In this document: positions 1 through 32,678 of the stretch, piece by piece
How the letters are laid out: each line of letters starts with the position of its first letter
How positions within the stretch are numbered: position 1 is the stretch's first letter
Source: a virus
Reading direction: 5' to 3' (one strand)
DNA: 32,678 nt
IMG/VR virus record: IMGVR_UViG_3300003886_000029
Location: 1-32,678 of that record
Notes under the pieces: model-generated
Database searches by the model: none
What the model saw: only the letters and a program-made list of their open reading frames with translations
Told to the model about the DNA's origin: nothing
Program-made: the position numbers and the translations under genes

Positions 1-2
1 AT

Positions 3-674
3 GATCTTACGATCCCACGCCTCGTCATCGTTCAGGATCTCAGCCCTCAGCACAAGAAGAATAAAGCTGAGTACATCGAAGGTGCCGAAGTTGGCATGGT
101 ATTCAACACAGTGACCAATGAACTTTATGGATCTGATGTGTTGTTTGTCCCGGTGTACTTCCGTCTGGAGTGGGTAGTTTGGAAACATCGTGATGCAGGT
201 GGCGGCTTTATCGGCGCATATGCAACGCAGGAAGAGGCAGTTGAAGCGGTTGGTCAGCACCCTAATGCGGGGCAAACAACCGAGAAAGGTGATCCAATGC
301 TCGATGTTCAGGATACGGCTCAGCATTTTGGGCTGCTATTGGACCCCAACTCTTCGCTGGAAGACCCACGGGCTGCTGAGATCGTTATCTCAATGTCCCG
401 ATCCCAGTTGAAACCGTCACGGCAATTTAACAGTCAGATCAAGTTGGCTGGTGGCGACCGTTGGGAGCGTTATTACAAGCTCTCGGCAATCGAAGCCCAA
501 AATCAAGCGGGCCAAGATTACTACAACTGGAAAGTCGAGCAACTTGGCTTTGTCTCAGAGGCTGTTTTCGCTCAGGCGGAAAGTTTGTACGAGTCGGTCA
601 AGGCGGGTGTACGCGACGTAGAGCGCGGCGATCCAAAGCCTTCAACAGAAGAGGCGGATGACGGCAAAATGTAG
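3..674 (+). CDS. Conserved phage replication-module protein, 5' truncated
   Basis: The reading frame is open from the first bases of the window, so the gene starts outside it; an internal ATG at 96 is not the true start because the residues before it (TIPRLVIVQDLSP, then YIEGAEVGM) read as normal protein. At least 223 residues are visible. The pattern IPRL-V-Q-LSP, EGAEVGMVFNT, VPVYFR--WVVW, GGGFIGAY is one I associate with proteins found beside single-strand-binding and recombination genes in many tailed phages, but I cannot name a proven function. The C-terminus is acidic (PSTEEADDGKM). It is followed by a rho-independent terminator and then the SSB-like gene, which suggests a role in DNA replication or repair. 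No catalytic motif was recognised. Confidence 0.8.
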   Translation, partial: DLTIPRLVIVQDLSPQHKKNKAEYIEGAEVGMVFNTVTNELYGSDVLFVPVYFRLEWVVWKHRDAGGGFIGAYATQEEAVEAVGQHPNAGQTTEKGDPMLDVQDTAQHFGLLLDPNSSLEDPRAAEIVISMSRSQLKPSRQFNSQIKLAGGDRWERYYKLSAIEAQNQAGQDYYNWKVEQLGFVSEAVFAQAESLYESVKAGVRDVERGDPKPSTEEADDGKM

Positions 675-681
675 GAATATT

Positions 682-708
682 GGGGTCCCGATATCGGGAC
701 CCCTTTTT
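682..708 (+). terminator. Rho-independent terminator, perfect 22-bp palindrome plus T5
   Basis: Bases 682-703 form a perfect palindrome whose arms read GGGGTCCCGAT, followed at once by TTTTT. It lies between the stop of the first gene (674) and the Shine-Dalgarno AGGAG (719-723) of the next. With no room for another promoter downstream of it, it may attenuate transcription rather than end it. The core 16 bases recur at 15451-15466, and the arms GGGGTCCC/GGGACCCC recur in the minus-strand terminator at 25095-25122. Confidence 0.8.
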
Positions 709-730
709 CACACTTCACAGGAGTAGAACC

Positions 731-1000
731 ATGGCGTTTGAACACAAAGATAACAGCGGGTCCATCTTCAAGAATCAATACAAGAAAGAAGATAAGCATC
801 CGGACCACCAAGGTAGTTGCAAAATCATTTGCGAGGAATGTGGCCACGCGACCGAATTACGAATTTCTGCGTGGATTAGCGACCTCAAAGACAAGACGGG
901 CAAATACTTCGGATTGTCATTCAGCAAGCATCAGCCCAAGGAGCCATCCAGTCCGGTTGGCCGAACTGAGGACGATTTCGACGACGACATACCATTTTAA
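731..1000 (+). CDS. Small SSB-like protein with acidic tip DDDIPF
   Basis: The 89-residue product starts at ATG 731, which has AGGAG eight bases upstream; a longer reading from 680 would begin inside the terminator hairpin and is rejected. The N-terminus (MAFEHKDNSGSIFKN) and the -ISAWI- and -YFGLSFSK- strands match a small phage family often placed in replication modules. The protein ends in DDFDDDIPF, which closely resembles the acidic, phenylalanine-terminated tail by which single-strand-binding proteins recruit replication partners. A CEEC pair near residue 37 could bind a metal. It precedes the polymerase gene by three bases, so the two are probably translated together. Single-strand DNA binding is inference; the length is well below classical SSB. 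Confidence 0.75.
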   Translation: MAFEHKDNSGSIFKNQYKKEDKHPDHQGSCKIICEECGHATELRISAWISDLKDKTGKYFGLSFSKHQPKEPSSPVGRTEDDFDDDIPF

Positions 1001-1003
1001 GTC

Positions 1004-2830
1004 GTGTATCCCGACCTTCATAGATTTGACCGGTTCGCATACGACACGGAAACTACAGGCTTACGTTACCCAATACATAAAGCTTTTGCCTGTTCGATAT
1101 CGACCCCTGATGGGAAGGACTGGTACTACGATTTTCGGCGGCAGCCGAAGGCGCTGGACTGGCTAAATGAAGCTTTTGGGAGATTACCCGAGAGTACCCG
1201 TATCATTTGCCATAATGCACCTTTTGACGCATGCATGTCGGCTGCTGCCGGAATTTTTATCCCTCTCCATTTGCTCGATGATACTATCAATCGTGCTTGT
1301 ACCATCAATGAGCACGAGGCATCTAAATTCCCATGGAACAAACACCAAAAACCAGGAGGTTATAGCCTCGACTACCTATGTCGAAAGTACATAGGCAGAG
1401 GGAAAAGGGAAATAGATGTCGTTAATATTGCTGATCTTCCATACGAGGAAGTTAAAGATTATGCTGTCGATGATGCGATCCTAACACTTGAACTTTGGGA
1501 GTGGCAACAAAAAGAAATAGAGAGGATGGGACTTGAGCAAATCAATAAACTCGAACGTAATGCTATGCCCCGAATTATTAGATCCCAGATGGAGGGAATT
1601 CGAGTCGATCTTGATACTGCTGAACAAGCGATGAAGAACATGACCCCTATGATCGAGGGGCATCAACGGGAAATGGATAAAATGGCGGGATGGAATTTTA
1701 ATGCCAATTCCCCCCCGCAAGTTAAGAAATTATTTAAACCCGAACAACGAAACGGCACTTGGTGGGTCGGTAAATGTAAAATTGGCACTACTGGCAAGGG
1801 TGCACCAAGCTTTGGCAAAGAATACCTTGAATCATTAGCGGAGACTGACCCACGGGCGAGACAAATCGTAAAAATTCGATCCGGGCTTAAGACTCGCGAT
1901 ACTTTCCTTAAGAAACACATCCTTGAACATGCGATCGGGAATCGAGTCTATCCAACAATCAACCAAACGGTCAGAGAAACTGGCGGCACTAAATGGGGTC
2001 GATTATCCTACGTCGATCCAGCCATGCAACAGATCCCCTCTCGCGATAAGATCACCGCCGCTATTGTCAAACCTTGCTTTTTACCAGATGAAGGTCAAGT
2101 ATGGCTAGATTATGATTTGGCTTCATTTGAGGTTAGAATATTCGCTGCATTAGTGGGCATGTATGACGATCATCTTGTCAAAATGTATCAAGCTAACCCT
2201 TCTCTTGATTTTCATCAGACTGTAGCCGATCTTACGGGGCTAAAGCGCAATGCGGAATACGGCGGGGAACCAAATGCCAAGCAGTTGAACCTCAGTATGA
2301 TCTTTGTACAGGGCGCAGGAGCAACAGCCCAAAAAATGGGCATGGAGACGGAAGATGCAGAGTTCACAGATGAATGGGGGGAGGTCATTAAATACCAACG
2401 TGCAGGTGACGATGCGTATAGAATTATTGACCGATACCACACTAAAGTCCGGGGAGTGCGCAAACTTGCGGAAACTGCTAAAAAGATTGCGGAGAGACGG
2501 GGTTATATTAGAACTAAGTATGGGAGACATCTTAGATTCCCTAAACGATACAAATCATACAAGGCTTCCGGTATCCTTATTCAAGCAACATCGGCGGATA
2601 TAAATAAAGAGAATTGGTGCATCATTGACGAGGCTCTAGATAATAGAGGACGAATAATCCTTAACACACACGACAGTTATAGTATGTCAGCTAAAGAGGA
2701 CCATGTAGAAGATTTACTGGAGGATATTAAAGGAGCAGTGGAACGAGAGTTCTTGGGCGTTCCTTTACTGTTAGATCTAAATGGAGTAGGGCGGAACTGG
2801 TGGTCTGCCTTAAAAAATAAAGGGATATAG
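1004..2830 (+). CDS. dpoZ: Family A DNA polymerase with 3'-5' exonuclease, DpoZ type
   Basis: The 608-residue replicative polymerase starts at GTG 1004 with only a weak ribosome site, so coupling to the SSB-like gene is likely. The proofreading domain shows ExoI DTE (D14, E16), ExoII NAPFD (N71, D75) and ExoIII YAVDD (Y153, D157). The polymerase domain shows LSYVDPAMQQIPSR (about 335-347), motif A YDLASFEVR (D371, E376), motif B NAKQLNLSMIF (K426) and motif C HDS (H556, D557). There is no 5' nuclease domain. Motif B departs from the norm: the usual arginine four residues before the lysine is E422, and the residue at the E. coli Phe762 position is L430. Because purZ and mazZ follow in the same block, I infer the DpoZ class that copies with dZTP; the family A identity itself is certain. 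Confidence 0.93.
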   Translation: MYPDLHRFDRFAYDTETTGLRYPIHKAFACSISTPDGKDWYYDFRRQPKALDWLNEAFGRLPESTRIICHNAPFDACMSAAAGIFIPLHLLDDTINRACTINEHEASKFPWNKHQKPGGYSLDYLCRKYIGRGKREIDVVNIADLPYEEVKDYAVDDAILTLELWEWQQKEIERMGLEQINKLERNAMPRIIRSQMEGIRVDLDTAEQAMKNMTPMIEGHQREMDKMAGWNFNANSPPQVKKLFKPEQRNGTWWVGKCKIGTTGKGAPSFGKEYLESLAETDPRARQIVKIRSGLKTRDTFLKKHILEHAIGNRVYPTINQTVRETGGTKWGRLSYVDPAMQQIPSRDKITAAIVKPCFLPDEGQVWLDYDLASFEVRIFAALVGMYDDHLVKMYQANPSLDFHQTVADLTGLKRNAEYGGEPNAKQLNLSMIFVQGAGATAQKMGMETEDAEFTDEWGEVIKYQRAGDDAYRIIDRYHTKVRGVRKLAETAKKIAERRGYIRTKYGRHLRFPKRYKSYKASGILIQATSADINKENWCIIDEALDNRGRIILNTHDSYSMSAKEDHVEDLLEDIKGAVEREFLGVPLLLDLNGVGRNWWSALKNKGI

Positions 2831-2831
2831 G

Positions 2832-5063
2832 GTGTTATTACCTCTTAACGAGATTAAAGAGATTGATCAGATTGCGGATTTTGAGGACCGCATCCATGAG
2901 GCAGCAAAGTTGTATGCCAGAGCGGGCATACCCGTTGTGCCTCTCCGTCCGAATAGTAAAATATTGCCAAAGAAAGAATCTGGCATCAATTATCATTCGT
3001 GCAGCACTAAAGAAGGTACAATGGATCGATGGTTCGATGCTGAGGGCAAATATCGAGGATACAATATCGGGATCGTATGTGGTGAGGTAATGTTCGCCAT
3101 AGATCTGGATTTGCACAATCCCGAGAAAAATGGCATTGAAGCATGGACCCACCTGTCTGAAAATCGTGAAATGGACAATGTGCCAGTTCAAGAGACCCCC
3201 ACCGGGGGTCAACACATGTTGTTCAAATGGCGGGAAAATCTGACATCATCCTCCGGAAAACTCGGACCGGGCGTCGATACCCGTGGCGGCGACGGTAGCC
3301 CCCGCTCCCACATCGTGGCGTGGCCGTCATACGTAGAATGGGAAGAGCCAGATGGGGAGGATGACACTATACAAAAGAGCGGTACGTATAGCTGGGCAGA
3401 AGGGGGGGACGTACCGGACGCACCAGAGTGGATAGCGGAGTTAATGGGTGTCCCATGGGTACATGCCCCGGGGCGCGGAAACGAGGAAGTAGGAGAAGGC
3501 GATGGCGAAAAAACATATAAGCTCTCACAGATCGCGGCTATGCTCGACCATATCGATCCCAATATCTTATCTTATGAGGAATGGCTCTTCATTGGGCAAG
3601 CGATCAACAGTCAACACCCCGGAAACGATGGACGGGATTTGTGGGATAATTGGTCAGAAAATGGTGAACGATATGTTGCTGGGGAGTGCAATAAGCGATG
3701 GCCGGGCTTTAACCCATCTGGTACTATACGGATCGGCTCACTTATCTATTTCGCTAAACAAGGAGGGTACAGCGCTGATAGCGACCCTGCTCGAACCGGG
3801 GACTTTGACGAACTTATCGAAAGAATGAATGAAGACAATTCTATTCTATTAACTGGAGGTAAAATACGAATATTGCATCGAGACAAGCTTGGTGGGATTC
3901 ACATTATGGGGACAGGCGATTTTAACACTCTTATGTATAATCGCAAGGTCACCATACCGAGAGCACGTCGCAAATTTACCGAAGCGGACATTTGGATGGC
4001 TTCTCCTGAGCGACGGGAATGCGTAAGGGGTATGGGATTTTTCCCTGACCAACCTTTGTGGCATGATGGGTATGTTAACCTGTGGCAGGGTTGGGGCTGC
4101 GAGCCAAAGGAAGGTGGTAGTTGGGCCATGTTTGATCAGCACATATTAAATGTCCTATGTAATGGCGATAAAAAGTTATATGATTATGTACTTGATTGGG
4201 TGGCTGACATACTACAAGATCCAATGAAGCCAAAAGGTACTGCAATTGTCATGCACGGCGAAGAAGGCACGGGTAAAGGAACATTTTGTCATATAGTGGG
4301 CCATTTAGTTGGCCAAAAACACTACAAACATATAACTAACGAAAAACATCTAACAGGCAACTTCAATTATCTTTTAATGGATGGATTATTAATATTTGCG
4401 GATGAAGTAGTGTATGGTGGATCAAGGTCTACGGCAGGTATACTTAAATCCATGGTAACTGAAAAGGAACTTGTATGTGAGAAAAAGGGAGTTGATCCCT
4501 TCATGTATGAGAATCGAGGCAGGATAGTCATTGCTTCTAATGAGGATTGGTTTATACCTGCCGGACCGGAGTCGCGTCGATGGCTTGTGCTAGAAGTCAA
4601 TGACTCTGTAAAAAGTGACCCTCGATATTTTAATGCTCTGTATGACCAAATGGAAGATGGTGGGTATGAAGCAATGATGTACGATCTTCTTAATAGGGAG
4701 ATTAAAAGTAATTTAACCCGAGCGATTGAAACTGCCGGGTTGAAAGCACAACGTGCAATTTATAGAGCCACTGGTGATTCAGTTGATCAATGGATGGACT
4801 ATTGCATCGGTGTACAGAATTTAGGCTGCATTGACGAAGGCGAGGGAGACTGGCCCGATAGTGTAGATAGAGTGGGGTTGTTCAAAACCTACCAGAAATG
4901 GATGAAAGAACATGGTGGTTTAAGAACAAAAGGCAACGCACATTTTTATAAAAAGGTAGAAGGTTATGGATTTATCAGGAGCCGCCCAGCTTCAAAAGAA
5001 GGGGCCATCAGAAGGTGGCGATACAAGATCCCACATTATGACGAATTTACAATTCAAAGTTGA
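2832..5063 (+). CDS. PrimPol-SF3 helicase fusion (primase-polymerase/helicase)
   Basis: The 743-residue replication protein starts at GTG 2832, one base after the polymerase stop. Residues about 20-205 are a bifunctional primase/polymerase domain with catalytic DLD (91-93), the GGQH motif (H128) and GVDTRGGDG (147-155). Residues about 228-312 resemble a primase C-terminal (PriCT) domain. The C-terminal half is a superfamily 3/D5-like helicase: Walker A GEEGTGKGT (476-484), Walker B LLIFADE (519-525), sensor ASNED (568-572) and arginine-finger candidates R582/R583. It should prime and unwind at the phage fork for the adjacent polymerase. T7 instead uses a gp4 TOPRIM-RecA-type primase-helicase, so this T7-shaped phage has a different replisome. 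Its 3' end overlaps the start of purZ by 26 bases. Confidence 0.9.
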   Translation: MLLPLNEIKEIDQIADFEDRIHEAAKLYARAGIPVVPLRPNSKILPKKESGINYHSCSTKEGTMDRWFDAEGKYRGYNIGIVCGEVMFAIDLDLHNPEKNGIEAWTHLSENREMDNVPVQETPTGGQHMLFKWRENLTSSSGKLGPGVDTRGGDGSPRSHIVAWPSYVEWEEPDGEDDTIQKSGTYSWAEGGDVPDAPEWIAELMGVPWVHAPGRGNEEVGEGDGEKTYKLSQIAAMLDHIDPNILSYEEWLFIGQAINSQHPGNDGRDLWDNWSENGERYVAGECNKRWPGFNPSGTIRIGSLIYFAKQGGYSADSDPARTGDFDELIERMNEDNSILLTGGKIRILHRDKLGGIHIMGTGDFNTLMYNRKVTIPRARRKFTEADIWMASPERRECVRGMGFFPDQPLWHDGYVNLWQGWGCEPKEGGSWAMFDQHILNVLCNGDKKLYDYVLDWVADILQDPMKPKGTAIVMHGEEGTGKGTFCHIVGHLVGQKHYKHITNEKHLTGNFNYLLMDGLLIFADEVVYGGSRSTAGILKSMVTEKELVCEKKGVDPFMYENRGRIVIASNEDWFIPAGPESRRWLVLEVNDSVKSDPRYFNALYDQMEDGGYEAMMYDLLNREIKSNLTRAIETAGLKAQRAIYRATGDSVDQWMDYCIGVQNLGCIDEGEGDWPDSVDRVGLFKTYQKWMKEHGGLRTKGNAHFYKKVEGYGFIRSRPASKEGAIRRWRYKIPHYDEFTIQS

Positions 5064-6027
5064 TCTGATAATTGATTTACAATTCGGGAGCACTGGCAAG
5101 GGATTGATTGCCGGGTATTTGGGAGAAACTGGAGATTACGATACTTGTATCTCGGCCAACATGCCGAATGCAGGTCATACATATATTGATCGGGTTGGGA
5201 ACAAGTATATATTCAAAGTCCTACCGTCATCAGCGGTATGCCCAGACATTAAGACAATACTAATAGGACCCGGTGCCGTATTTAGTGTAGATCGATTATT
5301 AGAAGAGATGATGTATCTTCGCCCAGATCAAACACTCAGGATACACCCAAATGCCACTATCTTATTGGAACGTCATGCTGAGGAGGAACGTAAGAAATTG
5401 ACTCACATAGCCAGCACTGCTCAAGGGTCCGCATCTGCAGTTATCGATAAAATGTGGCGGAAAGGACAATGTACAGCTAAACAATTGCTCAAGAATACTG
5501 AAATTGGAACTCTTGTAGCCAGTCATGACGAATGGCGAATACGCCTTGAATCATCTACTGGTATCCTTGCAGAAGGGTCGCAGGGTTATAGTCTCGGGAT
5601 AAACACCCAATTCTATCCCTACACCACCAGTCGTGATTGTACACCTGCGGCCTTTCTCTCTAATATGGGTATACCATTATCCATGCTTAGTTTAATTATT
5701 GGAACTGCTCGAACTTTGCCCATCAGAGTTGGTGGGTCCAGCGGCGATTGCTACCCAGATCAGGAGGAATTAAGTTGGGAGAGACTCGATTTGCCAGAGG
5801 AACGAACAACTGTTACTAACCGAGTGCGCCGCATCTTTAGCTATTCGAAGATGCAAATGGAAGAGGCTTGTTGGTATTGCAATCCCGATCTAGTTTTCCT
5901 AAACTTCTGTAATTATGTCGAGAAGGACTACGTTGAAAATATCGTAGCGCATATAGATGAAATTTGCGGCAGTGAGGTCAGGTGGGTCGGGTTTGGCCCC
6001 TCATATAATGATGTGGGAGTGATATAA
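5038..6027 (+). CDS. purZ: PurZ-type N6-succino-2-amino-2'-deoxyadenylate synthase
   Basis: The 329-residue homologue of adenylosuccinate synthetase (PurA) is shorter than bacterial PurA at about 430. ATG 5038 is chosen because the upstream extension lies wholly inside the primase gene and the conserved fold begins at once. The P-loop reads QFGSTGKG (15-22); PurA has WGDEGKGK here, so the catalytic Asp13 is replaced by S18, a known PurZ hallmark that lets dGMP replace IMP. NAGHT (H47), LAEGSQG (178-183), YPYTTSRD (193-200) and RVRRIF (262-267) follow the PurA order. The PurA guanine-recognition TKLD is LNFCN (288-292), consistent with ATP or dATP use instead of GTP. Predicted reaction: dGMP + Asp + ATP gives dSMP, which host PurB and kinases turn into dZTP. 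Confidence 0.93.
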   Translation: MTNLQFKVDLIIDLQFGSTGKGLIAGYLGETGDYDTCISANMPNAGHTYIDRVGNKYIFKVLPSSAVCPDIKTILIGPGAVFSVDRLLEEMMYLRPDQTLRIHPNATILLERHAEEERKKLTHIASTAQGSASAVIDKMWRKGQCTAKQLLKNTEIGTLVASHDEWRIRLESSTGILAEGSQGYSLGINTQFYPYTTSRDCTPAAFLSNMGIPLSMLSLIIGTARTLPIRVGGSSGDCYPDQEELSWERLDLPEERTTVTNRVRRIFSYSKMQMEEACWYCNPDLVFLNFCNYVEKDYVENIVAHIDEICGSEVRWVGFGPSYNDVGVI

Positions 6028-6407
6028 TGAATCAAGATAAATTTCACCCATCGGTCCTCGATGATAGTAAACAGAGTCCATTTGAACCGGGCGTGGTGAA
6101 TGTGAGATCTAGTCGGTTTGATCTGGCGATGCTATCAATCATTACATGGGCGGACAATATCATACCCAATCGATCACCGGCCGACGCCATTAAGAAGTTG
6201 TCAATGGAGGAAGTCCCGGAGTTATGGAACAGCCTGAAAAGGAACGGGACAGTAGACCCACTCGAAGTGGCCGACGTATTGATACTGGCATTGGATATCT
6301 GCCACATGTCTGGCATTGATCCGCTCGACGCCATTAATGAGAAGATGGCGATCAATCAGTGTCGCAACTGGAAATTTGAATACGGGGTATTGCAACATGA
6401 GGAATAA
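6027..6407 (+). CDS. mazZ: MazZ-type (d)GTP pyrophosphohydrolase, MazG fold
   Basis: The 126-residue protein has its ATG overlapping the purZ stop by one base (TAATG) and GGGAG upstream. It carries the all-alpha NTP pyrophosphohydrolase signature EExxE...ExxD: E61, E62, E65, then E80 and D83, which bind catalytic magnesium ions. The C-terminal segment KMAINQCRNW is typical of phage MazG-like proteins. MazZ partners of PurZ convert dGTP to dGMP, which feeds PurZ and drains the dGTP pool. The N-terminal 30 residues are a non-conserved lead-in. Substrate preference for guanine nucleotides is inferred from the tight purZ-mazZ pairing; an ordinary housekeeping MazG is the alternative. Confidence 0.88.
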   Translation: MNQDKFHPSVLDDSKQSPFEPGVVNVRSSRFDLAMLSIITWADNIIPNRSPADAIKKLSMEEVPELWNSLKRNGTVDPLEVADVLILALDICHMSGIDPLDAINEKMAINQCRNWKFEYGVLQHEE

Positions 6408-6409
6408 TC

Positions 6410-6643
6410 ATGCAATCTAAAACAATGAGCATAATTGAGATGCTGACCGGCAAAGTGGCAGGATACGCGTTGTTTGTAGCGGCTCAAGTAGTGATACTTC
6501 CGTTATATTATGATGTTCAGGTGCCAATAACCGATAACATGCAGATAGGGTTAATGTTCTCGTTCATAGCGACGTTTAAAAGTTACGGAGTCCGTCGATT
6601 TTTTAATTGGCTACAATGGGGAAGAAATAAGGAGTTGATATGA
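6410..6643 (+). CDS. Small phage membrane protein, DUF7220-like
   Basis: The 77-residue protein starts at ATG 6410 behind GAGGAA. Two hydrophobic segments (about 15-33, AGYALFVAAQVVILPLYY, and about 43-58, MQIGLMFSFIATF) flank a polar turn, and the protein ends with SYGVRRFFNWL. This pattern matches the small inner-membrane family I know as DUF7220, common in tailed phages and of unknown function. It sits between mazZ and a small acidic gene in the replication block, with no sign of a lysis role. Confidence 0.8.
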   Translation: MQSKTMSIIEMLTGKVAGYALFVAAQVVILPLYYDVQVPITDNMQIGLMFSFIATFKSYGVRRFFNWLQWGRNKELI

Positions 6644-6849
6644 GTGAAGTTACTTGGGTGGAGATAACTATACTCCACGAAACGGATGATGCGGTCCTAG
6701 TCACACAGGACCCTGACTCGGAGGATACCAACATAGCGAAGTGGGTGCCTAAAAGTCAAATTACTGATTCCACCGATGATATGGACATTGGGGCCGAAAT
6801 TGAGATCGAAATACCGGTGTGGCTAGCCGAAGACAAGGAATTGGTATGA
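6640..6849 (+). CDS. Small acidic phage protein, function unknown
   Basis: The 69-residue protein has its ATG overlapping the preceding stop by four bases (ATGA), with a strong AAGGAG upstream. It is rich in Asp and Glu (DDAVLV, DPDSED, DDMDIGAEIEIE), with the pattern WVPKSQI in the middle and VWLAEDKELV at the end. I recall similar small proteins beside nuclease genes in other phages but know no function. The next gene overlaps it by four bases, so the two are co-translated. Confidence 0.75.
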   Translation: MSEVTWVEITILHETDDAVLVTQDPDSEDTNIAKWVPKSQITDSTDDMDIGAEIEIEIPVWLAEDKELV

Positions 6850-7349
6850 GCCAAGGCGAAAAGAAAATGTGGGATTACCTGCGCCCCAAACTCAAAGCGC
6901 ATGGTCATTTTGATAGGATAGAATCTCATGCAACTGCTGTTGGCGTTCCTGATATTGATTACTGCATTAGCGGGTATTGTAACAATCTTGAACTCAAGTG
7001 GACTGATTCCGAAAAAAGAGGATTCCGTCTACGACCTGCTCAAGCTGGGTGGTTCAGGAAACGTGTCAAGGCGCTTGGACAGCCATGGCTGTTGGCGCTC
7101 AGTCAAATACGTGGCAAACGCGGGTACGTACTCATCCCCGGAGCCAGTGTCCCCGATCTTGTTCACACAACCAGAGTCACAGATTGGTTAGGAAGGGGAG
7201 TAGGAATATGGGAAGACAAAATAGACATCGATCAGCTGGTTCAATTCTTGGGGACATACCTCGTCACGGATGCCCCCTTACAGTCACCTTCGACGAATCC
7301 CGACGAATCCTCTGGATTGATCTTGCCGTCACATCTAAAGAAAGAATAG
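6846..7349 (+). CDS. VRR-NUC-like PD-(D/E)xK nuclease
   Basis: The 167-residue protein starts at ATG 6846 in an ATGA overlap; an in-frame start further upstream (6819) would overlap the previous gene more and lacks a ribosome site. The nuclease core is readable: E26 in an N-terminal helix, GVPD (D36), ELK (E49, K51), then LRPAQAGW with Q65, the order seen in VRR-NUC and related Holliday-junction or branch-specific nucleases. It closes the replication block, where T7-like phages keep endonuclease I, so resolution of recombination or packaging intermediates is a reasonable guess. The last 20 residues follow a 10-bp tandem duplication (7291-7310) that fixes the current reading frame and are probably variable. 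Confidence 0.8.
   Translation: MSQGEKKMWDYLRPKLKAHGHFDRIESHATAVGVPDIDYCISGYCNNLELKWTDSEKRGFRLRPAQAGWFRKRVKALGQPWLLALSQIRGKRGYVLIPGASVPDLVHTTRVTDWLGRGVGIWEDKIDIDQLVQFLGTYLVTDAPLQSPSTNPDESSGLILPSHLKKE
7291..7310. repeat. 10-bp perfect tandem duplication
   Basis: CGACGAATCC occurs twice back to back inside the nuclease gene. Ten is not a multiple of three, so loss of one copy would end the protein a few codons later instead of giving the SSGLILPSHLKKE tail. Confidence 0.85.
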
Positions 7350-7373
7350 TTGTAGTCCGCGATCTAATGATGA

Positions 7374-7405
7374 AATACGAACCATGTACGGCCATGGTTC
7401 GTATT
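7374..7405. repeat. Inverted repeat at the convergent gene junction
   Basis: AATACGAACCATG (7374-7386) pairs perfectly with CATGGTTCGTATT (7393-7405) around a six-base loop TACGGC. It lies in the gap between the rightward nuclease gene and the leftward holin gene (7350-7478), which otherwise holds no gene I can support. Neither strand has a T-run after the stem, so it is not a classical intrinsic terminator; a bidirectional transcription barrier or mRNA 3'-end stabiliser is inferred. Confidence 0.75.
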
Positions 7406-7478
7406 CATCAAGTCATATGGACCTATTATACAGGGGATGACAATATTTTGGTGAGTATAGGCAAAGATGCCTATGATG

Positions 7479-7910
7479 CTATGTCGGTTTCACTCCGGTA
7501 CGCGCAACGCCAAGACGCTTCTCATAAGTCCGCATGCCACCCAGACCTAACATACCAAGCAGAATGGTTATCAACTCACCTATATCCAGCTTCGGAGCCG
7601 TTGCCAGATCAGCCCCTTCTGGTAACAGAAAAGCGACCCACATAAGAATAGGCTGAATGATGAAGTTCCAAGCGAGTCCTGCGCCGCAAATCCAACCGAT
7701 CGCCGGTCGCCATCCGGCCACAAAGATGGACCCATGCCCTGCTTCTTTTTGGTTAATAGCAAGTTGGCCCTGAACAATTCCAGACATCGCGGCCAGCAAT
7801 TGTCCTTCAAAGGCCTCTTGAGCTTCGGCACGTTTATTCTTGTCCGGAATAAAACGCAACACCCCATCAAGAATGGGTCCTAGTGCATTCTTAAGTAAAT
7901 TGCCTAGCAT
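7479..7910 (-). CDS. Holin, three-transmembrane (GTA_holin_3TM-like)
   Basis: The 143-residue protein has an N-terminal amphipathic/charged region with EAQEAFEGQL, then VAGWRPAIGWICGAGLAWNF (about 63-82), a second hydrophobic stretch LMWVAFLLP and a third LITILLGMLGLGGMRTYEK near the end. The GWRPAIGW signature is diagnostic of the 3TM holin superfamily found in gene transfer agents and many phages. It would form the inner-membrane lesion that lets the adjacent M15 endopeptidase reach peptidoglycan. It is the last gene of the leftward block; its start overlaps the upstream stop by one base (TAATG). Confidence 0.88.
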   Translation of the reverse strand: MLGNLLKNALGPILDGVLRFIPDKNKRAEAQEAFEGQLLAAMSGIVQGQLAINQKEAGHGSIFVAGWRPAIGWICGAGLAWNFIIQPILMWVAFLLPEGADLATAPKLDIGELITILLGMLGLGGMRTYEKRLGVARTGVKPT

Positions 7911-8062
7911 TATTTAATCCTCCATTCTTTGCACCATGTCCACGCCACAGCTTCGGCGGACACACATAATTTAACAGTGCCATCGGCATGCTCAACATTA
8001 ACATCAAATCCAATGCTCAGAACTTTGGCCGATAAAATTGGTAAAGGGTTGTTCATTTTCAT
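7910..8062 (-). CDS. Small protein in the lysis cassette, unknown
   Basis: The 50-residue ORF starts at ATG 8062 with GAGGAA at correct distance and ends overlapping the holin start by one base. The product begins MKMNNPLPILSAKVLSIGF and ends WTWCKEWRIK; it has no clear membrane segment or known motif. Good ribosome site and tight packing between endolysin and holin support it as a real gene. Its place suggests a lysis accessory, but nothing in the protein shows this. Confidence 0.7.
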   Translation of the reverse strand: MKMNNPLPILSAKVLSIGFDVNVEHADGTVKLCVSAEAVAWTWCKEWRIK

Positions 8063-8072
8063 GTTATTTCCT

Positions 8073-8414
8073 CTATTTCAATCCTTCCCATTCCAATGAA
8101 TAGTGATTCCCATCATTGAACCGACCACCCCAACAACATAACTTATGTTGTTGTTCCCACCATTCACCCAATTCACGGTGACCCTCAGTAGTGGTTATGA
8201 ATTTGCCATCCCGAAATAAATTCAAATCAATGGCCATTTTCAGCTTGTGTACTGAGAAAGCACGGCCGTATGAGGTCCTTTTGCCCAACTTACCATGAGA
8301 GCGGGGATCTCTAAATAGGTCTCCACCCCTAATTTCAAATCCAAAGCTATGGGCTTTATCGATAAGACGTGGCAGAAGTCGCATAAATAGTTCTTGTTGT
8401 GCGCCCAATCTCAT
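8073..8414 (-). CDS. Endolysin, M15-family peptidoglycan endopeptidase
   Basis: The 113-residue protein is short but complete for an M15C-type L-alanyl-D-glutamate or related endopeptidase. The zinc-site pattern is present: SVH (H56), AIDLN (D63) and DGNH (catalytic D101, H104), with WGGRF before the last motif. There is no signal peptide, so it needs the holin to leave the cytoplasm. Its ATG overlaps the upstream stop by four bases (ATGA). The cassette order is membrane protein, endolysin, small protein, holin. Confidence 0.88.
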   Translation of the reverse strand: MRLGAQQELFMRLLPRLIDKAHSFGFEIRGGDLFRDPRSHGKLGKRTSYGRAFSVHKLKMAIDLNLFRDGKFITTTEGHRELGEWWEQQHKLCCWGGRFNDGNHYSLEWEGLK

Positions 8415-8683
8415 CGACTGGCCTCATTGATCAAATATTCCGTAAAAATTTCTTCAAATCGCTGTTGGTTTTCAATGGCGGTATCAATTTTGCCGTCCAT
8501 GGCAACTACAGTGCTTTTGATGACTTCCACATCAGTGGTGATTTGACCGGTGTCTGGGATAGATACATTAGACAATTGAGATTTCACCTCTTGTGAGATC
8601 CACCACTGCCCCGCCATCGCCACAACAGCCATGCCTCCCAATCCTACAACAGCTTGGATCATTCGATTATTCTTCAGGATCAT
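8411..8683 (-). CDS. Single-span membrane protein of the lysis cassette
   Basis: The 90-residue product starts at ATG 8683, with AAAGAGA at good spacing; the TTG six bases earlier is too close to that site. A hydrophobic segment at about residues 9-27 (QAVVGLGGMAVVAMAG) is followed by a polar, helical and probably periplasmic tail (EVKSQL, KIDTAIENQQRFEEIFTEYL). One N-terminal anchor plus a coiled-coil-like tail next to endolysin and holin fits an inner-membrane spanin subunit or a holin-modulating protein. No outer-membrane lipoprotein partner with a lipobox was found, so the spanin idea is only moderate. Confidence 0.7.
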   Translation of the reverse strand: MILKNNRMIQAVVGLGGMAVVAMAGQWWISQEVKSQLSNVSIPDTGQITTDVEVIKSTVVAMDGKIDTAIENQQRFEEIFTEYLINEASR

Positions 8684-9359
8684 TTTCAAGTCTCTTTATA
8701 GTATGTTGTGCATAATCTCTGCGCGCTTGGGCTTTTTGAGCCGCAATTCGGCCCCCATACTCAATTCTGGCGACTCGTTGTTCAAGTGTCTCTAGCTCTT
8801 CTTCCTGTATATTAATAGCTATCTGCTGTTGCACGTATGCCTCCGGGTCCACCGGTCGGTGCATACCCCCCGGCTCGGATACGCCTCCGGCCGCATCGGG
8901 ACGGGTCTCCTCGCCATCGGGACCAGAACCCGGTGGGGTAGTGGGGGGTGGGGTCCACGTATTCTCCCGTATACATTCTAAGTCAGTATTAAAAAGTTTA
9001 TTAATTTCAGGTATTTGACACCTAAGTTTAGCCGCTACAGAATACATACCCTTAGCGTCATAGACTTCGGCGGCACACCATTTGTTTAAGACCAATTTTT
9101 GCTTGGACACAATTATCGTGCCCCATTGAGTGGATCCTAAACACTGATTAATATCAACATCCCCAAGAGAATGAGAGAATCCATACGCTTTAGAATCACC
9201 TCCAACTAAGCTAACCCCCTCATTGATCGCCGATGAATCCGATGCAGCAATATTTGTGTTTTTATTGATGTTGGCGTTTTTATTGACATTTGTAGGTCCT
9301 GCAAAAACATTGACCGGCAAACACAGAATCATAAAGCACAACAATTTTTTATATATCAT
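8667..9359 (-). CDS. Exported protein with Asn-rich repeats and Pro/Gly linker
   Basis: The 230-residue product starts at ATG 9359 with AAGGA seven bases upstream; ATG 9377 lacks a ribosome site. MIYKKLLCFMILCLPVNVFA is a clear signal peptide with cleavage expected after VFA. Next come VNKNANINKNTNI repeats, then SKAYGFSHSLGDVDINQC and a Cys-containing core (STQWGTI, LNKWCAAEVYDAKGM). Near residues 137-170 a Pro/Gly/Asp linker (TPPPTTPPGSGPDGEE) leads to a charged helical C-terminus (EEELETLEQRVARIE). I recall similar exported proteins with the STQWGTI/NKWCAAEVYDA core in other phages but know no function. It opens the lysis cassette; a periplasmic role in lysis or a virion role are both possible. 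Confidence 0.78.
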   Translation of the reverse strand: MIYKKLLCFMILCLPVNVFAGPTNVNKNANINKNTNIAASDSSAINEGVSLVGGDSKAYGFSHSLGDVDINQCLGSTQWGTIIVSKQKLVLNKWCAAEVYDAKGMYSVAAKLRCQIPEINKLFNTDLECIRENTWTPPPTTPPGSGPDGEETRPDAAGGVSEPGGMHRPVDPEAYVQQQIAINIQEEELETLEQRVARIEYGGRIAAQKAQARRDYAQHTIKRLENDPEE

Positions 9360-9369
9360 ACGAAAGTCC

Positions 9370-10272
9370 TTATACATTCGTCGCTAATCGTGCAAGTTGC
9401 ACGCCACTTGTACTGCTGCCGACCCAAATTTCGCTAGTATCGTTCGGGTTTACCCATACTCTAGTTATCAAAAACCCGAGACCAAGCACGTCATCGATGT
9501 CAATGAAAGGCCCAAAAGACAGCGTATTTATGTCGCCCGGTGTCGCCATTGTCACCAAACTTATTAAGGTGTTGCATTGATAAAAGCTCGCGCCGTCTAG
9601 TGACAAAACACTTTGCCCGATGTTGTGTGTATTGACACTAATTGGCGGGTCGATTATCTCAGTTCCATCAACCGTGAACGCCGACAGATCACCGGCAGGC
9701 GCAAGAGATATTTTTTTAATAACTGCAAGCGTATCTTGCCCGTTCCAAAGAACAGTTGAATCATCAACGTGAATAATAAAGCCGCCTTCTTGAGCACCTG
9801 TAAAGCCAACATCACCCTTTGACAGGGTGGATGTTTCTGTGGCCAAGCCAACAACAAAGCCGGAGCAGGCAAACGCATGAATAAAATCATGACCGAAGCG
9901 CATGGCGTAAGCACGGGAGCCACTATCGTTGAATTGCAATGAACTAGGAACCAAGGCGAGTCCCGCGGCTCGGTCTGCCGTTGGCGTTATACCGGCCGTA
10001 TCTGGATCGAATGGGGTCGAACACGTAAATGTGTATATGTGACCGCTACTACCGGGGTTACAGATCGTAAGCCTGCTGCCGTCATAACTCCAAGCAAAAC
10101 CATTATTAAACGCATCACCGCCCATGCCAGTTATCATATTGGCCATATCACCGAGTCGAGTATCCCATAGCTGAATCAAGGTCCAGTTGCTCGGATCATT
10201 AAAGACTGTTGGAATACCAGTGGGCACTAACTGTGATGGAGCTATATTGCCTGATGGTAAAGGGGGACTCAT
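9370..10272 (-). CDS. Putative tail protein with beta-propeller-like repeats
   Basis: The 300-residue protein overlaps the upstream fibre gene by four bases (ATGA). Repeated blocks such as AWSYDGSRLTICNP followed by YTFTCSTPFDPDTAGI resemble the phage tail repeat in which a strand with DGS/DGT precedes Y-LSTPFD-TA; several later blocks (LSLDGASFYQC, VNPNDTSEIWVGS) fit the same fold. A receptor-binding or tail-fibre role is inferred from this and from its place after the fibre adaptor. No enzymatic motif was seen. Confidence 0.72.
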   Translation of the reverse strand: MSPPLPSGNIAPSQLVPTGIPTVFNDPSNWTLIQLWDTRLGDMANMITGMGGDAFNNGFAWSYDGSRLTICNPGSSGHIYTFTCSTPFDPDTAGITPTADRAAGLALVPSSLQFNDSGSRAYAMRFGHDFIHAFACSGFVVGLATETSTLSKGDVGFTGAQEGGFIIHVDDSTVLWNGQDTLAVIKKISLAPAGDLSAFTVDGTEIIDPPISVNTHNIGQSVLSLDGASFYQCNTLISLVTMATPGDINTLSFGPFIDIDDVLGLGFLITRVWVNPNDTSEIWVGSSTSGVQLARLATNV

Positions 10273-10982
10273 GATGCTTCATTCCCAACCAATACCCAAT
10301 TATCGATCTCATCTTGAATAAGAGTTACTGTACCGAATTGAGCGTTTACTGCCTTTGATCCGGGTGAATCAATATTTACACCTATCCCCGGCAAAAATCC
10401 TAATATCGCCACACCTTTTTGTTGGAAAGTAATTTGAACACCCAATGCAAATGCCACATCCGAATTAGGTGGTATTGTAATATCTTGTGTCGCACCAACA
10501 TCTATAGATTGTAAAAATTTGAATGCATCAGTCAGGATCAATGTTCTATCACCAAGAAATGATACGAATTCCCATCTAAATCCGGCTTCTATAGTAGTAA
10601 CAATTGCATCAATTTGAGCTTGAAGATCAGCGGTCTCTGCCGTATTGATAGCATCAAGATCTTGGATCGCCATCATCAGTTTATCGAGTTGGTCCTCATG
10701 AGACTCTGAGTCAAATGGATCATATCTATTATAATCCATCTCTTGCGTTTGAGGGGTCACCCGTTGGATACGGATACTTTGTAGATTAGGTGGGGCTACA
10801 TTATAGTCAACAGTTCCCCCCGGACTCGAATCTTGGTCCGCGTTTAATGTAATACCAAGCAGGTCAATCACAAAATCAACCGAGACCCACAGCACGTCGT
10901 CAGCCCTAAACGCGAAAGGGAATGAGACCTGCACTGCATTGCCTACGGCATTAACAAAATTTGGAGTATCTTGAACGGTCAT
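10269..10982 (-). CDS. Short tail fibre protein with T7-gp17-like N-terminal adaptor
   Basis: The 237-residue protein has GAGGA upstream of its ATG. Residues 1-110 carry the virion-binding adaptor of T7-type fibres: strands with FPFAF, DDVLWVSVDF, then YDPFDSESHEDQLDKLMMAIQD. The rest (VAFALGVQITFQQKG, IGVNIDSPGSKAVN, GTVTLIQDEIDNWVLVG) reads as a short beta-rich tip. It is a paralogue of the 13633-14787 product: the adaptor motif is nearly the same in protein and DNA (about 50 bp near 10688 and 14503). Confidence 0.85.
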   Translation of the reverse strand: MTVQDTPNFVNAVGNAVQVSFPFAFRADDVLWVSVDFVIDLLGITLNADQDSSPGGTVDYNVAPPNLQSIRIQRVTPQTQEMDYNRYDPFDSESHEDQLDKLMMAIQDLDAINTAETADLQAQIDAIVTTIEAGFRWEFVSFLGDRTLILTDAFKFLQSIDVGATQDITIPPNSDVAFALGVQITFQQKGVAILGFLPGIGVNIDSPGSKAVNAQFGTVTLIQDEIDNWVLVGNEAS

Positions 10983-11021
10983 TAACTAGTCCTCAATTTT
11001 CTCTTAATCGATGGTGTATGA

Positions 11022-11333
11022 TTATTTCAGCGCCAAGAATTGACCAACAGTCAAGCAATCAGATGGACCCACTACCACAAAGCCCTCATCAGTTCGACCT
11101 GATACGGTATCGGTCATCTGCCAAACAATAATCGTCTTTGCGGCCAGCGATGTCACAATGTCTGAGTTGTTGAGTCTGTATAGGCCCGTTGCCCCAATCT
11201 CTATACACACCCCCGTTGTGAGCGGAATTGCTGCACCTGTCTCGCCGTTGAAAAGCAGGCCAGTGACAACACGTCCAGTTCGGAACCGGCCAAACACGGC
11301 GAAGCTCTCACCAATTGCATATCTCACGCTCAT
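11022..11333 (-). CDS. Small protein of the GC-rich tail module
   Basis: The 103-residue, beta-rich protein (FAVFGRFRTGRVVTGLLFNGE, IEIGATGLYRLNN, TIIVWQMTD) is not recognised. Its ATG overlaps the upstream stop by four bases. It is the last of three genes (13620 to 11022) with higher GC than their neighbours, so it probably entered with them as a tail-decoration or fibre module. Confidence 0.7.
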   Translation of the reverse strand: MSVRYAIGESFAVFGRFRTGRVVTGLLFNGETGAAIPLTTGVCIEIGATGLYRLNNSDIVTSLAAKTIIVWQMTDTVSGRTDEGFVVVGPSDCLTVGQFLALK

Positions 11334-13105
11334 GGTCTGAATTCTCCCATTGCTTTGTCCTCAACCGGAAAGTCGGCAAGGAATGGTGCGGTAGGCTTAA
11401 ATCCATCCAGCACACGCCTGAATCCGTTGCCCTCGACAATAATCCGATACTGCAGATTGATAAAGCGCATCGCCAGACCCGTCTCGTATCCGACAAACGC
11501 AGCGATTTCCACGCCGTTGGTGTTGATGCGCCCATTCCCATCCACTGTGAACGGAGAACCGGGAATAGGAATCTCACGATAATCCTGTTGCAACACTAGC
11601 GCGGCACCACCTTGCGGGGGCTGATCCACTTCCAAATCGCCCGGCGCAGGCTCCGTGGTCACGACAATCGTAAACGGCGTGTCCGCAACATCTGCATTGA
11701 TGATAAATGCGTTATTGCCCAGATTGACAAGTGTGGTAGCAGGCACGGATGACACTGGCTCCGATCCAGCGTTGATGGCCGCTACCAAACTACTCCTGAG
11801 CGCCGGTACACTTTGGGCCACCGAAATGTGCGTATGGTCAACGCCATTTATTGTGATCGTATAAGTACCGTCTGTCTGATTCAGAACTCGCATGTAGTGC
11901 CCGTCAGACACGCGCTCTATACTCACTTCTGCACCGACTAACGGACTCGGCCCTGTCACGAAATTGATGTCTGTGAATCTTGGGTTGAACGTGTATGACT
12001 TGGCAGCGGCGGAATTGCTGAGCTGGAAAAGCTCGGCGGCAGTGTAATCTTCACGAGGATCAATAAATTGAGCGGCCGAATTGAATAAGAACTGCATGGG
12101 GTTGAACGCCGCATCGCTGAGCTCCACCTCTCTCAGAATAACCTCGACAGCAGAGAAAATGATCCCGAAATTGCTAGAGTCAGCTTGTAAGAAATTAGCA
12201 GCGCTGGCTATTGGCCCCAGTGGGGCGATACCGAAGTTGGGGGAATTGTGGATTACCGTCTGTAGCGTTTCCAGGGTTCCACCAGAATTGGGTGCAATAA
12301 GGCCAGCGTTTACAATCGACCCTGCTAGAGCGCCTTCACCGGGTCCATCGTATACGACATAAAATAGTTGCGAAGCACCTGAGTGTAAGTAGCTGCCATA
12401 TATTGATATAGATAATTCACCATTTGGTAAATTAGCAATTGATCCACCGAGTAGCACGCTGCCGTTCTGAACTGATCGTGGATCGAGTGGATCGGCAAGT
12501 GAGCCGAAATTGATGTTGCTCTGTGCACCCACCACCGCCGTATTATTGCCTGCTATGAACCACTCTGACGCGATGCCGGGACTTGATCGTTGAGCACCGT
12601 CCCAGTCCAGAAACCAGACCTCGTTTTCGCTCAGGAGGTCCGTAGTAGCTGCCACTGTATTATTGAAGAAAAATACACGGATTAGAAATCCATAAATCCT
12701 GAATTCTCGCCCCGCAGTCTGTGCCGGAGTAGTGAACTTCAACTCAAAAAGTCTAGAATCAAGTAGCGCCATTGCCGCAGCGATTGAGGCTGCGCTGACC
12801 ACCGCCTCGTCCTGAATGACGAGGAAGTTGTTCTGCTCGCGAATTGTTAGTGTTCCTGCCGCCGCTTCAACTGTTGGTGCTGGAAAAACCTCAATCGTGT
12901 TGGCGTCGATCACATCCAGCACGACATAGGCAGCATCATTGCTGATCGACCCGACAAGCTCCCCAGAATCCCCACGCACTACTCCAACACCGAGGTTCAC
13001 ACCGGCGATGGTATTGGGCGCGTTGCCAAACGCCGTAACCGCTACAGCAGGATTGATTACACCTAACGCGCCAGCAATGAATTGTGGGAGGAAAACGTAG
13101 GCCAT
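11330..13105 (-). CDS. Large putative tail/baseplate structural protein
   Basis: The 591-residue protein is rich in Ala, Gly, Asn and beta-branched residues, with no Walker, nuclease or protease motif. The N-terminus (MAYVFLPQFIAGALGVINPAVAV) is hydrophobic but lacks the charged start of a signal peptide. Blocks such as GVVRGDSGELVGSI, TYTITINGVDHTHI and FTVDGNGRINTNGVEI are typical of phage fibre-type folds. It lies between the two fibre adaptor genes, joined by a TGATG overlap upstream and ATGA downstream. Function is inferred from context only. Confidence 0.7.
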   Translation of the reverse strand: MAYVFLPQFIAGALGVINPAVAVTAFGNAPNTIAGVNLGVGVVRGDSGELVGSISNDAAYVVLDVIDANTIEVFPAPTVEAAAGTLTIREQNNFLVIQDEAVVSAASIAAAMALLDSRLFELKFTTPAQTAGREFRIYGFLIRVFFFNNTVAATTDLLSENEVWFLDWDGAQRSSPGIASEWFIAGNNTAVVGAQSNINFGSLADPLDPRSVQNGSVLLGGSIANLPNGELSISIYGSYLHSGASQLFYVVYDGPGEGALAGSIVNAGLIAPNSGGTLETLQTVIHNSPNFGIAPLGPIASAANFLQADSSNFGIIFSAVEVILREVELSDAAFNPMQFLFNSAAQFIDPREDYTAAELFQLSNSAAAKSYTFNPRFTDINFVTGPSPLVGAEVSIERVSDGHYMRVLNQTDGTYTITINGVDHTHISVAQSVPALRSSLVAAINAGSEPVSSVPATTLVNLGNNAFIINADVADTPFTIVVTTEPAPGDLEVDQPPQGGAALVLQQDYREIPIPGSPFTVDGNGRINTNGVEIAAFVGYETGLAMRFINLQYRIIVEGNGFRRVLDGFKPTAPFLADFPVEDKAMGEFRP

Positions 13106-26111: not shown

Positions 26112-26459
26112 TTACGTCTTCTCAACCGGAGGTGATAAAGGACCCAGAACTGAGCTACCCTTCATCGATCTCTGTGTTCGTGGGCTCATCATACCACACC
26201 CGAGAGTCTCTGTCAAGCCTCGCAAGCTTACCGTGTACTCTTGCCAGTTCGATTCAATTAACTTGCACCATTTCTCTTGTTCAGCAACAGGACGCTCGGG
26301 ATTGAGACGGCAGAAATCGGGGCGGTCGTCGTAAATTGAGCACAAATTATCGGGTGTGAGATTGATACAGGCCCCGTCACCCCGGTCCAATTCAGGGTGG
26401 TTGAGGCCTGCCATCTTACAGCAGGCCCCGCACGACCAACACTCAAATTTATCCGCCAC
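26112..26459 (-). CDS. CxxCxxCC (YkgJ-type) metal-cluster protein
   Basis: The 115-residue protein starts at GTG 26459, overlapping the scaffold stop by 11 bases. CWSCGACC (C7, C10, C13, C14) followed by C31, LC (C40), IYDDRPDFC (C50) and WC (C65) is the CxxCxxCC zinc/iron-chelating signature. Family members bind a metal cluster and have been linked to protein modification, but the phage role is not known to me. It is unusual between scaffold and capsid genes; modification of a virion protein is one idea. The capsid promoter lies inside its 3' half, so its C-terminal codons also carry regulatory sequence. Confidence 0.82.
   Translation of the reverse strand: MADKFECWSCGACCKMAGLNHPELDRGDGACINLTPDNLCSIYDDRPDFCRLNPERPVAEQEKWCKLIESNWQEYTVSLRGLTETLGCGMMSPRTQRSMKGSSVLGPLSPPVEKT
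26188..26216 (-). promoter_or_regulatory. Sigma70-type promoter for the major capsid gene
   Basis: On the minus strand: TTGACA (26216-26211), 17-base spacer, TATGAT (26193-26188), with TGG before the -10 (extended -10). The predicted start near 26180 gives a leader of about 145 bases to the capsid ATG. It shares GGCTTGACA and GTGGTAT with the promoter at 31895-31924. Confidence 0.75.
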
Positions 26460-32058: not shown

Positions 32059-32678
32059 AGGGAACAGAAAGAAAATATCAGAAAGCGCGCAGTACACGGG
32101 TCCCGTGGAACAGCTTGCCAACAGCTTTGGGGGTGTACCCCCATTGGAACCGCGCGAATAGGGTATAGGTATTCCCGCCTACGGTTTTCTTTCCCCGGAA
32201 CCCGTTGCCCAAGCCGTTCGTGTCGGAACCGTATACGTGCGTAGCAGTATGAACGCGTTAAGGAATTCATTGCCGATAGTCACAACTGCCACAATAGGTC
32301 AATGCATTGCAAACACGTCAATGAACGGGTTCTCACGATTGGCCGAGGGCGGGGTGCAGGACAATTCCAGGGACAGTGGGGCAGAATAAGCCGAACGACA
32401 ATCTCGCGCGGAGTCGCGGTGTCCTTTCGGCACAAGTGTCAGACCCACTCGAACTTGCTCTCGGACCCCGCGGTCCTTCCGGGACCGGAGGTCGGACTCA
32501 CGGAGAACGAACCCCCCGTCCCCCCCCCCTCGCGGTCGACGTCCCCCTCCCCTCGGCGGTTTTTTTCTTTTTTCCTTTTTAGAAAAAGGACAGAGAGGAC
32601 TGGGGGGACTGCCCCCGTGTGGCTGGGCTTTTGGAGTGGTTCTCATCGGGACTGGTCTCGCTGGTCCTTCTCTCTCCT
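32059..32678. other. Non-coding control region, hairpin-rich, window end
   Basis: No ORF here has a ribosome site or protein-like composition. It holds TGGGGGT/ACCCCCA (32128-32143), CACGGG/CCCGTG around one T (32095-32107), the palindrome CAATGCATTG (32300-32309), GTCAATG twice (32298 and 32317), competing GGACC/GGTCC stems (32463-32487) and TCCTTTTT/AAAAAGGA (32573-32590). From about 32340 it becomes very GC-rich. A packaging site, genome end or early-transcript leader are all possible. Confidence 0.6.
32512..32552 (-). other. Possible G-quadruplex on the minus strand
   Basis: C-runs of 6, 10, 5 and 4 (32512-32517, 32520-32529, 32543-32547, 32549-32552) give four G-runs of at least four on the complement. 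The longest inner loop is 13 bases, which weakens a single intramolecular fold. Confidence 0.5.

Follow-up and report, generated by a model that had tools for sequence, protein, structure and literature searches.

A predicted 2-aminoadenine cassette of the phiVC8 lineage with DUF7220 in the usual datZ slot

The closest described relatives of the locus considered here are the Vibrio phage phiVC8 (Enhodamvirus), the Alteromonas phage ZP6 (Mareflavirus) and the Stenotrophomonas phage BUCT555, which have in common the gene order polymerase, primase, PurZ, MazZ-type protein, DatZ and VRR-NUC nuclease, with one extra small gene ahead of the VRR-NUC gene in phiVC8. The published role of MazZ in making 2-aminoadenine (Z) is the conversion of dGTP to dGMP, which feeds PurZ; DatZ is placed by the literature in the Z-cluster of phages with a phiVC8-type DpoZ polymerase, to explain phage DNA free of adenine (A). 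A 2026 NAR paper states that PurZ phages ‘mostly’ encode DatZ, and we found no report of PurZ/DpoZ phages lacking DatZ in the papers searched, although exceptions may sit in the supplement of the NAR paper. Here we describe such a case in the IMG/VR record IMGVR_UViG_3300003886_000029, a fragment of 32,678 bases that was analysed whole (hereafter the window). Its biochemistry and gene order are already known, and its cassette adds a member to the phiVC8 lineage; what is new is that the Z genes are retained while DatZ has repeatedly been swapped for a small protein of the DUF7220 family.

We consider it likely that a podovirus-like phage without DatZ carries, in this block, a Z cassette of the phiVC8 lineage, and that A would be mostly excluded through DpoZ. 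The block lies at the left end of the window with all of its genes on the plus strand, and the virion genes then follow on the minus strand. A reading of this DNA from its letters alone (the sequence-only reading) had assigned PurZ, MazZ and a family A polymerase to one block, and family matches located all three. PurZ (succino-amino-deoxyadenylate synthase, 329 residues, 5038..6027) scores 313.6 bits on the curated NCBIfam PurZ model NF038379, above its threshold of 300; its open reading frame (ORF) opens at 4966, and the start was placed at the ATG at 5038 from comparison with phiVC8. The protein is 53% identical to phiVC8 PurZ, 47% to that of ZP6 and ~50% to that of BUCT555, matches PDB 6FM1 (E 4.5e-106), and has a homologue in the PurZ of cyanophage S-2L (7ODX). 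As had been noticed from the letters, its motif QFGSTGKG carries Ser where PurA has the catalytic Asp, and the last base of its stop codon is also the first of the MazZ ATG (taATG). In the PurZ tree the window protein falls within the phage PurZ group with E. coli PurA far off, which is the opposite of the clustering with cellular PurA that had been named as evidence against a Z genome. By family membership the window protein is a phage PurZ, with a predicted activity on dGMP and not on IMP.

The polymerase (DpoZ, 608 residues, 1004..2830) is a family A enzyme with a 3'-5' exonuclease of the phiVC8 type, scoring 715 bits on the NCBIfam model phage_DpoZ_1 (NF038380), whose threshold is 500, with a PF00476 match at E 6.5e-40 and 51% identity to the DpoZ of both phiVC8 and ZP6. 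From the marker residues and insertions listed for phiVC8 DpoZ in the crystal-structure paper (PMC8599892), it keeps R440, L455, F459, G548 and S583 together with all three insertions; D26, E28 and D85 of the exonuclease are likewise retained. An AlphaFold2 model built from 54 sequences (pLDDT 92) superposes on 7PBK with a VIA Z of 41.7 and a root-mean-square deviation of 2.1 over 582 residues; a first model from 9 sequences was poor (pLDDT 48) and was discarded. Extended exonuclease helices E1 and E2 are a reported trait of phiVC8-type DpoZ (PMC8599892), and here the window differs from phiVC8: helix E1 (~17 residues) is missing from the window protein and from every DpoZ of its clade that could be aligned (L004, L007, L009-L012, L049 and L052). 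We do not count this as disqualifying, since the other DpoZ type likewise lacks the extended helices. In helix E2, an R161A/M165A double mutant of phiVC8 DpoZ loses exonuclease activity, and R161 is described as varying to lysine only (PMC8599892); in the window clade the R161 position holds R, K, L or F (Leu or Phe in several members) and the M165 position V or I. A connection between the helix-E1 deletion and loss of DatZ was considered and rejected, as clade members that bear DatZ carry the deletion too.

MazZ (6027..6407) is assigned by PF04447 (26.7 bits, above the threshold of 23), and its best PDB match is S-2L MazZ (7ODY, E 2.4e-14). From the metal-binding and guanine-reading residues named for that enzyme (PMC8342488), the alignment retains the metal ligands and the equivalents of I56, D60, K76, N80, R83 and W85; N20, which is unique to S-2L MazZ, is not retained. 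By sequence, then, this is a predicted (d)GTP pyrophosphohydrolase of the S-2L (MazZ-1/DUF550) type and not of the MazZ-2 type found in phiVC8 and, as a MazG, in ZP6. The window differs from both of these phages also in lacking their DatZ, and from S-2L (datZ, mazZ, purZ) in the reverse sense, S-2L having DatZ and no DpoZ and the window DpoZ and no DatZ. BUCT555 is the closest isolate in layout, with polymerase, primase, PurZ, a DUF550 MazZ and VRR-NUC, but it too has DatZ in the slot. ZP6 shares gene order and related head genes with the window and no DNA-level match to its first 12 kb; indeed, positions 1-12000 gave no megablast match against 50,697 phage records, so that similarity to Enhodamvirus or Mareflavirus was not seen at the DNA level. 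Nearest is a clade of IMG/VR loci (L004-L013, L049 and L052) with window-like gene order, PurZ identities of 67-75% and the helix-E1 deletion wherever DpoZ is readable; ten of these relatives were followed as far as their contigs reach and keep the order throughout. They have DatZ where the window has DUF7220, except L004 (in genome record G001) and L009 (in G006).

The usual datZ slot, which runs from MazZ to the VRR-NUC gene, falls inside the window. Its right edge, in relatives as here, is the VRR-NUC or helicase-associated nuclease that closes the block (6846..7349; phrog_2165, E 3.3e-20), and it is filled by a gene for a small membrane-type DUF7220 protein (6410..6643; PF23858, E 1.5e-18) and one for a 69-residue protein with no assigned function (6640..6849; phrog_8389, E 4.7e-6). 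The earlier remark that DatZ is not visible was therefore right and can be made more strongly, and a search of the rest of the window by tblastn, profile and motif gave no DatZ match either. Using an 18-sequence DatZ profile on the whole records of 14 clade members, we found DatZ in 11, always in the MazZ/VRR-NUC slot, and none in the window, G001 or G006. The last of these is a closed, complete genome of ~40.7 kb, as its ends carry an exact 141-base direct repeat and TerL can be read across both of them; searches of this genome turned up neither DatZ nor an HD-type ORF nor any further known dNTPase, and those of its early genes that were tested gave no Pfam or PHROG match to a dNTPase. Likewise, the replication blocks of the window, L004 and L009 hold none of the other dNTPases looked for (DutZ/DmtZ, DUF5664), and the three-gene Z-cluster arrangement, with datZ adjoining mazZ and purZ, is not present in the window, G001 or G006. 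The suggestion of a MazZ-only type is thereby supported and sharpened, as neither the usual slot nor a closed relative has DatZ; the search that had been proposed for it need not be confined to the missing segment. In a wider survey of 82 PurZ loci, some of them near-copies so that the counts are not independent, 74 had DatZ within 5 kb, four lacked it and four were incomplete. The four without DatZ are the window, L004, L009 and L083 (IMGVR_UViG_3300033696_000004, 119,931 bases); L083 has a PurZ with the Ser motif, DpoZ, MazZ and DatZ were not found within 8 kb of it, and DatZ was not found anywhere in that record. The survey also turned up, in many PurZ loci (L014, L015, L016, L054, L055, L059 and others), a separate DUF5664-like gene shortly 3' of DatZ, where Acinetobacter phages are known to have a DUF5664-DUF550 fusion instead.

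How datZ and duf7220 came to occupy the same place can be read in part from DNA identity and from the tree. Between the window and G006, identity is 83-92% within DUF7220 and mostly ~60-75% in the flanks; between G006 and the DatZ-bearing G004, the pattern is reversed, mostly 76-96% in the flanks and 42-48% at DUF7220/DatZ. In a tree built from the polymerase, primase and PurZ, G006 is sister to G004 (100/100), and the DatZ-less trait is polyphyletic, needing at least three changes; a single DatZ loss, or one DatZ-less clade, was rejected by the approximately unbiased (AU) test (p 7e-6). Mosaic identity and polyphyly together suggest that datZ was most likely replaced by duf7220 at one site through homologous recombination across the MazZ and VRR-NUC flanks. 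The direction, from datZ to duf7220, is suggested by the near-universal presence of DatZ in the group. Chimeric assembly is an unlikely cause, as the same arrangement recurs in three records whose flanks differ; the G006 DUF7220 is nearer that of the window (89%) than that of G001, which comes from the same metagenome, and this also counts against a chimera. The remaining Z genes are under purifying selection, with ratios of nonsynonymous to synonymous substitution rates (dN/dS) between G006 and G004 of 0.10 (PurZ), 0.05 (DpoZ) and 0.17 (MazZ), and the DatZ-less branch carries no surplus of amino-acid substitutions; the pathway looks kept rather than decaying.

In the mechanism that we propose, MazZ would convert dGTP to dGMP, PurZ would join dGMP and aspartate to give the precursor of dZMP, host enzymes would complete dZTP, and DpoZ would insert Z opposite T in preference to A. 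Most likely, A would be kept down chiefly by the selectivity and proofreading of DpoZ; phiVC8 DpoZ reaches half-maximal full-length product at 449 uM dATP versus 15.6 uM dZTP (PMC8599892). S-2L PurZ can use dATP as phosphate donor (PMC8342488), and such use by the window PurZ may help to lower A. This modifies what the sequence-only reading had put forward, namely a Z genome, perhaps of a type in which DpoZ preference and the draining of dGTP must exclude A. The prediction of a Z genome is well supported by family cut-offs, DpoZ markers, active sites, gene order and the PurZ tree; A may be partly present rather than fully excluded, dGTP drain alone does not exclude A, and the use of dATP by PurZ had been overlooked. 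Several points weigh against our proposal. At cellular dATP, phiVC8 DpoZ still admits 1-6 successive As, and DatZ has been invoked for A-free phage DNA (PMC8599892); incomplete Z-clusters in E. coli gave lower Z content (PMC8342488); the window is a fragment from which ~8-9 kb of early region is missing; and the exchange in the G006 lineage happened recently, so that selection after it is only partly probed. For members without DatZ there are accordingly three options, exclusion by DpoZ and PurZ, a MazZ of dual activity, or some A in the genome, and our data do not choose among them. Exclusion of A by DpoZ and PurZ, with some residual A, is the option that we prefer as the most likely.

A mixed A/Z genome in members lacking DatZ, in which DpoZ favours Z and leftover dATP gives a measurable share of A, is a possibility that we hold tentatively. 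The successive As added by phiVC8 DpoZ at physiological dATP, the lowered Z content of incomplete clusters in E. coli and the closed G006 genome without DatZ all speak for it; however, PurZ may lower dATP in vivo, with dZTP taking its place, and the E. coli test relied on host polymerases that do not discriminate. A related and similarly tentative idea is that a natural phage population has datZ and duf7220 as two alleles of a single recombining site, and that the DatZ-less form has a mixed A/Z genome (or itself depends in some way on DUF7220), such that Z content would be polymorphic rather than fixed.

It is unlikely, if conceivable, that the clade MazZ also hydrolyses dATP and so covers for DatZ, as the DUF550 protein of SH-Ab 15497 might suggest. 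That protein is reported to be both a dATPase and a dGTPase (PMC8342488), and the window MazZ is of the same PF04447 family and 42% identical to it over 87 residues. However, the SH-Ab protein has an additional N-terminal DUF5664-type domain that the window MazZ lacks, and the same MazZ occurs in relatives that bear DatZ.

We find it highly doubtful that DUF7220 functionally replaces DatZ, for instance in the supply of dATP or against a host defence that DatZ also counters. DUF7220 is present in exactly the three clade records without DatZ (window, G001 and G006, of 14), at the same site and in three separate backgrounds, and it was seen in none of 41 further PurZ records; this exact match merits testing, though it amounts to only three cases. 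The protein has 77 residues, is of membrane type and shows no known catalytic motif; a literature search found no paper on it. DUF7220 occurs in 57 phage records, the gene contexts that were inspected vary, and 15 viral DUF7220 loci have no PurZ within 4 kb. Furthermore, the slot takes other cargo: the 69-residue gene (phrog_8389) neighbours DUF7220 in the window, and in L011 (7596-7799) it lies next to DatZ, between DatZ and VRR-NUC, so that the interval between MazZ and VRR-NUC behaves as a small cargo site. From these occurrences, DUF7220 is probably a passenger rather than a substitute for DatZ.

That the window phage encodes DatZ in its missing early region is very unlikely: a 32.7-kb fragment does fall short of the ~40.7 kb of its closed relative, but all 11 DatZ-bearing clade records have the gene in the MazZ/VRR-NUC slot, and the complete G006, with DUF7220 in that slot, has none. 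Least credible of all is a relic cassette, kept with PurZ and DpoZ in a phage that has reverted to A-DNA, for while the loss of one pathway gene could start decay, active-site residues are kept and dN/dS (0.05-0.17) does not rise on the DatZ-less branch.

Beyond the Z genes, the block holds a Prim-Pol/DUF5906 primase-helicase (2832..5063; PF09250, E 9.9e-18; PF19263, E 6.4e-23) that was absent from the sequence-only reading. Its place, after the polymerase gene and ahead of that for PurZ, is also that of the phiVC8 and ZP6 primases, to which it is 44-45% identical (44% for phiVC8). Upstream of the polymerase lie a gene for a small ssDNA-binding-like protein (680..1000; phrog_18154, E 6.9e-7), kept across the clade, and a Pam3 gp34-like gene (3..674; PF23977, Pfam E 1.1e-65), cut by the window start; this upstream neighbour is conserved in phiVC8 and ZP6 as well as in the clade. 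Elsewhere in the window, a CxxCxxCC putative metal-chelating protein (26112-26459; PF03692) adjoins the major capsid gene and is conserved in G007, G009 and G010. At the far end, positions 32300-32678 form a GC-rich tail that includes ten consecutive Cs and has neither a coding match nor a phage DNA match; a 30-base piece near the window end matches G001 at 90%, and the tail is thus probably a real terminal or regulatory stretch.

In the closed G006 and in two other records, PurZ, MazZ and DpoZ are retained without DatZ, and a DatZ-bearing relative is ~90% identical in the flanks. Such a natural pair with and without DatZ could show whether the polymerase alone excludes adenine. With the Z genes retained where DatZ has been swapped out, the need for DatZ becomes testable through a DatZ-less variant.

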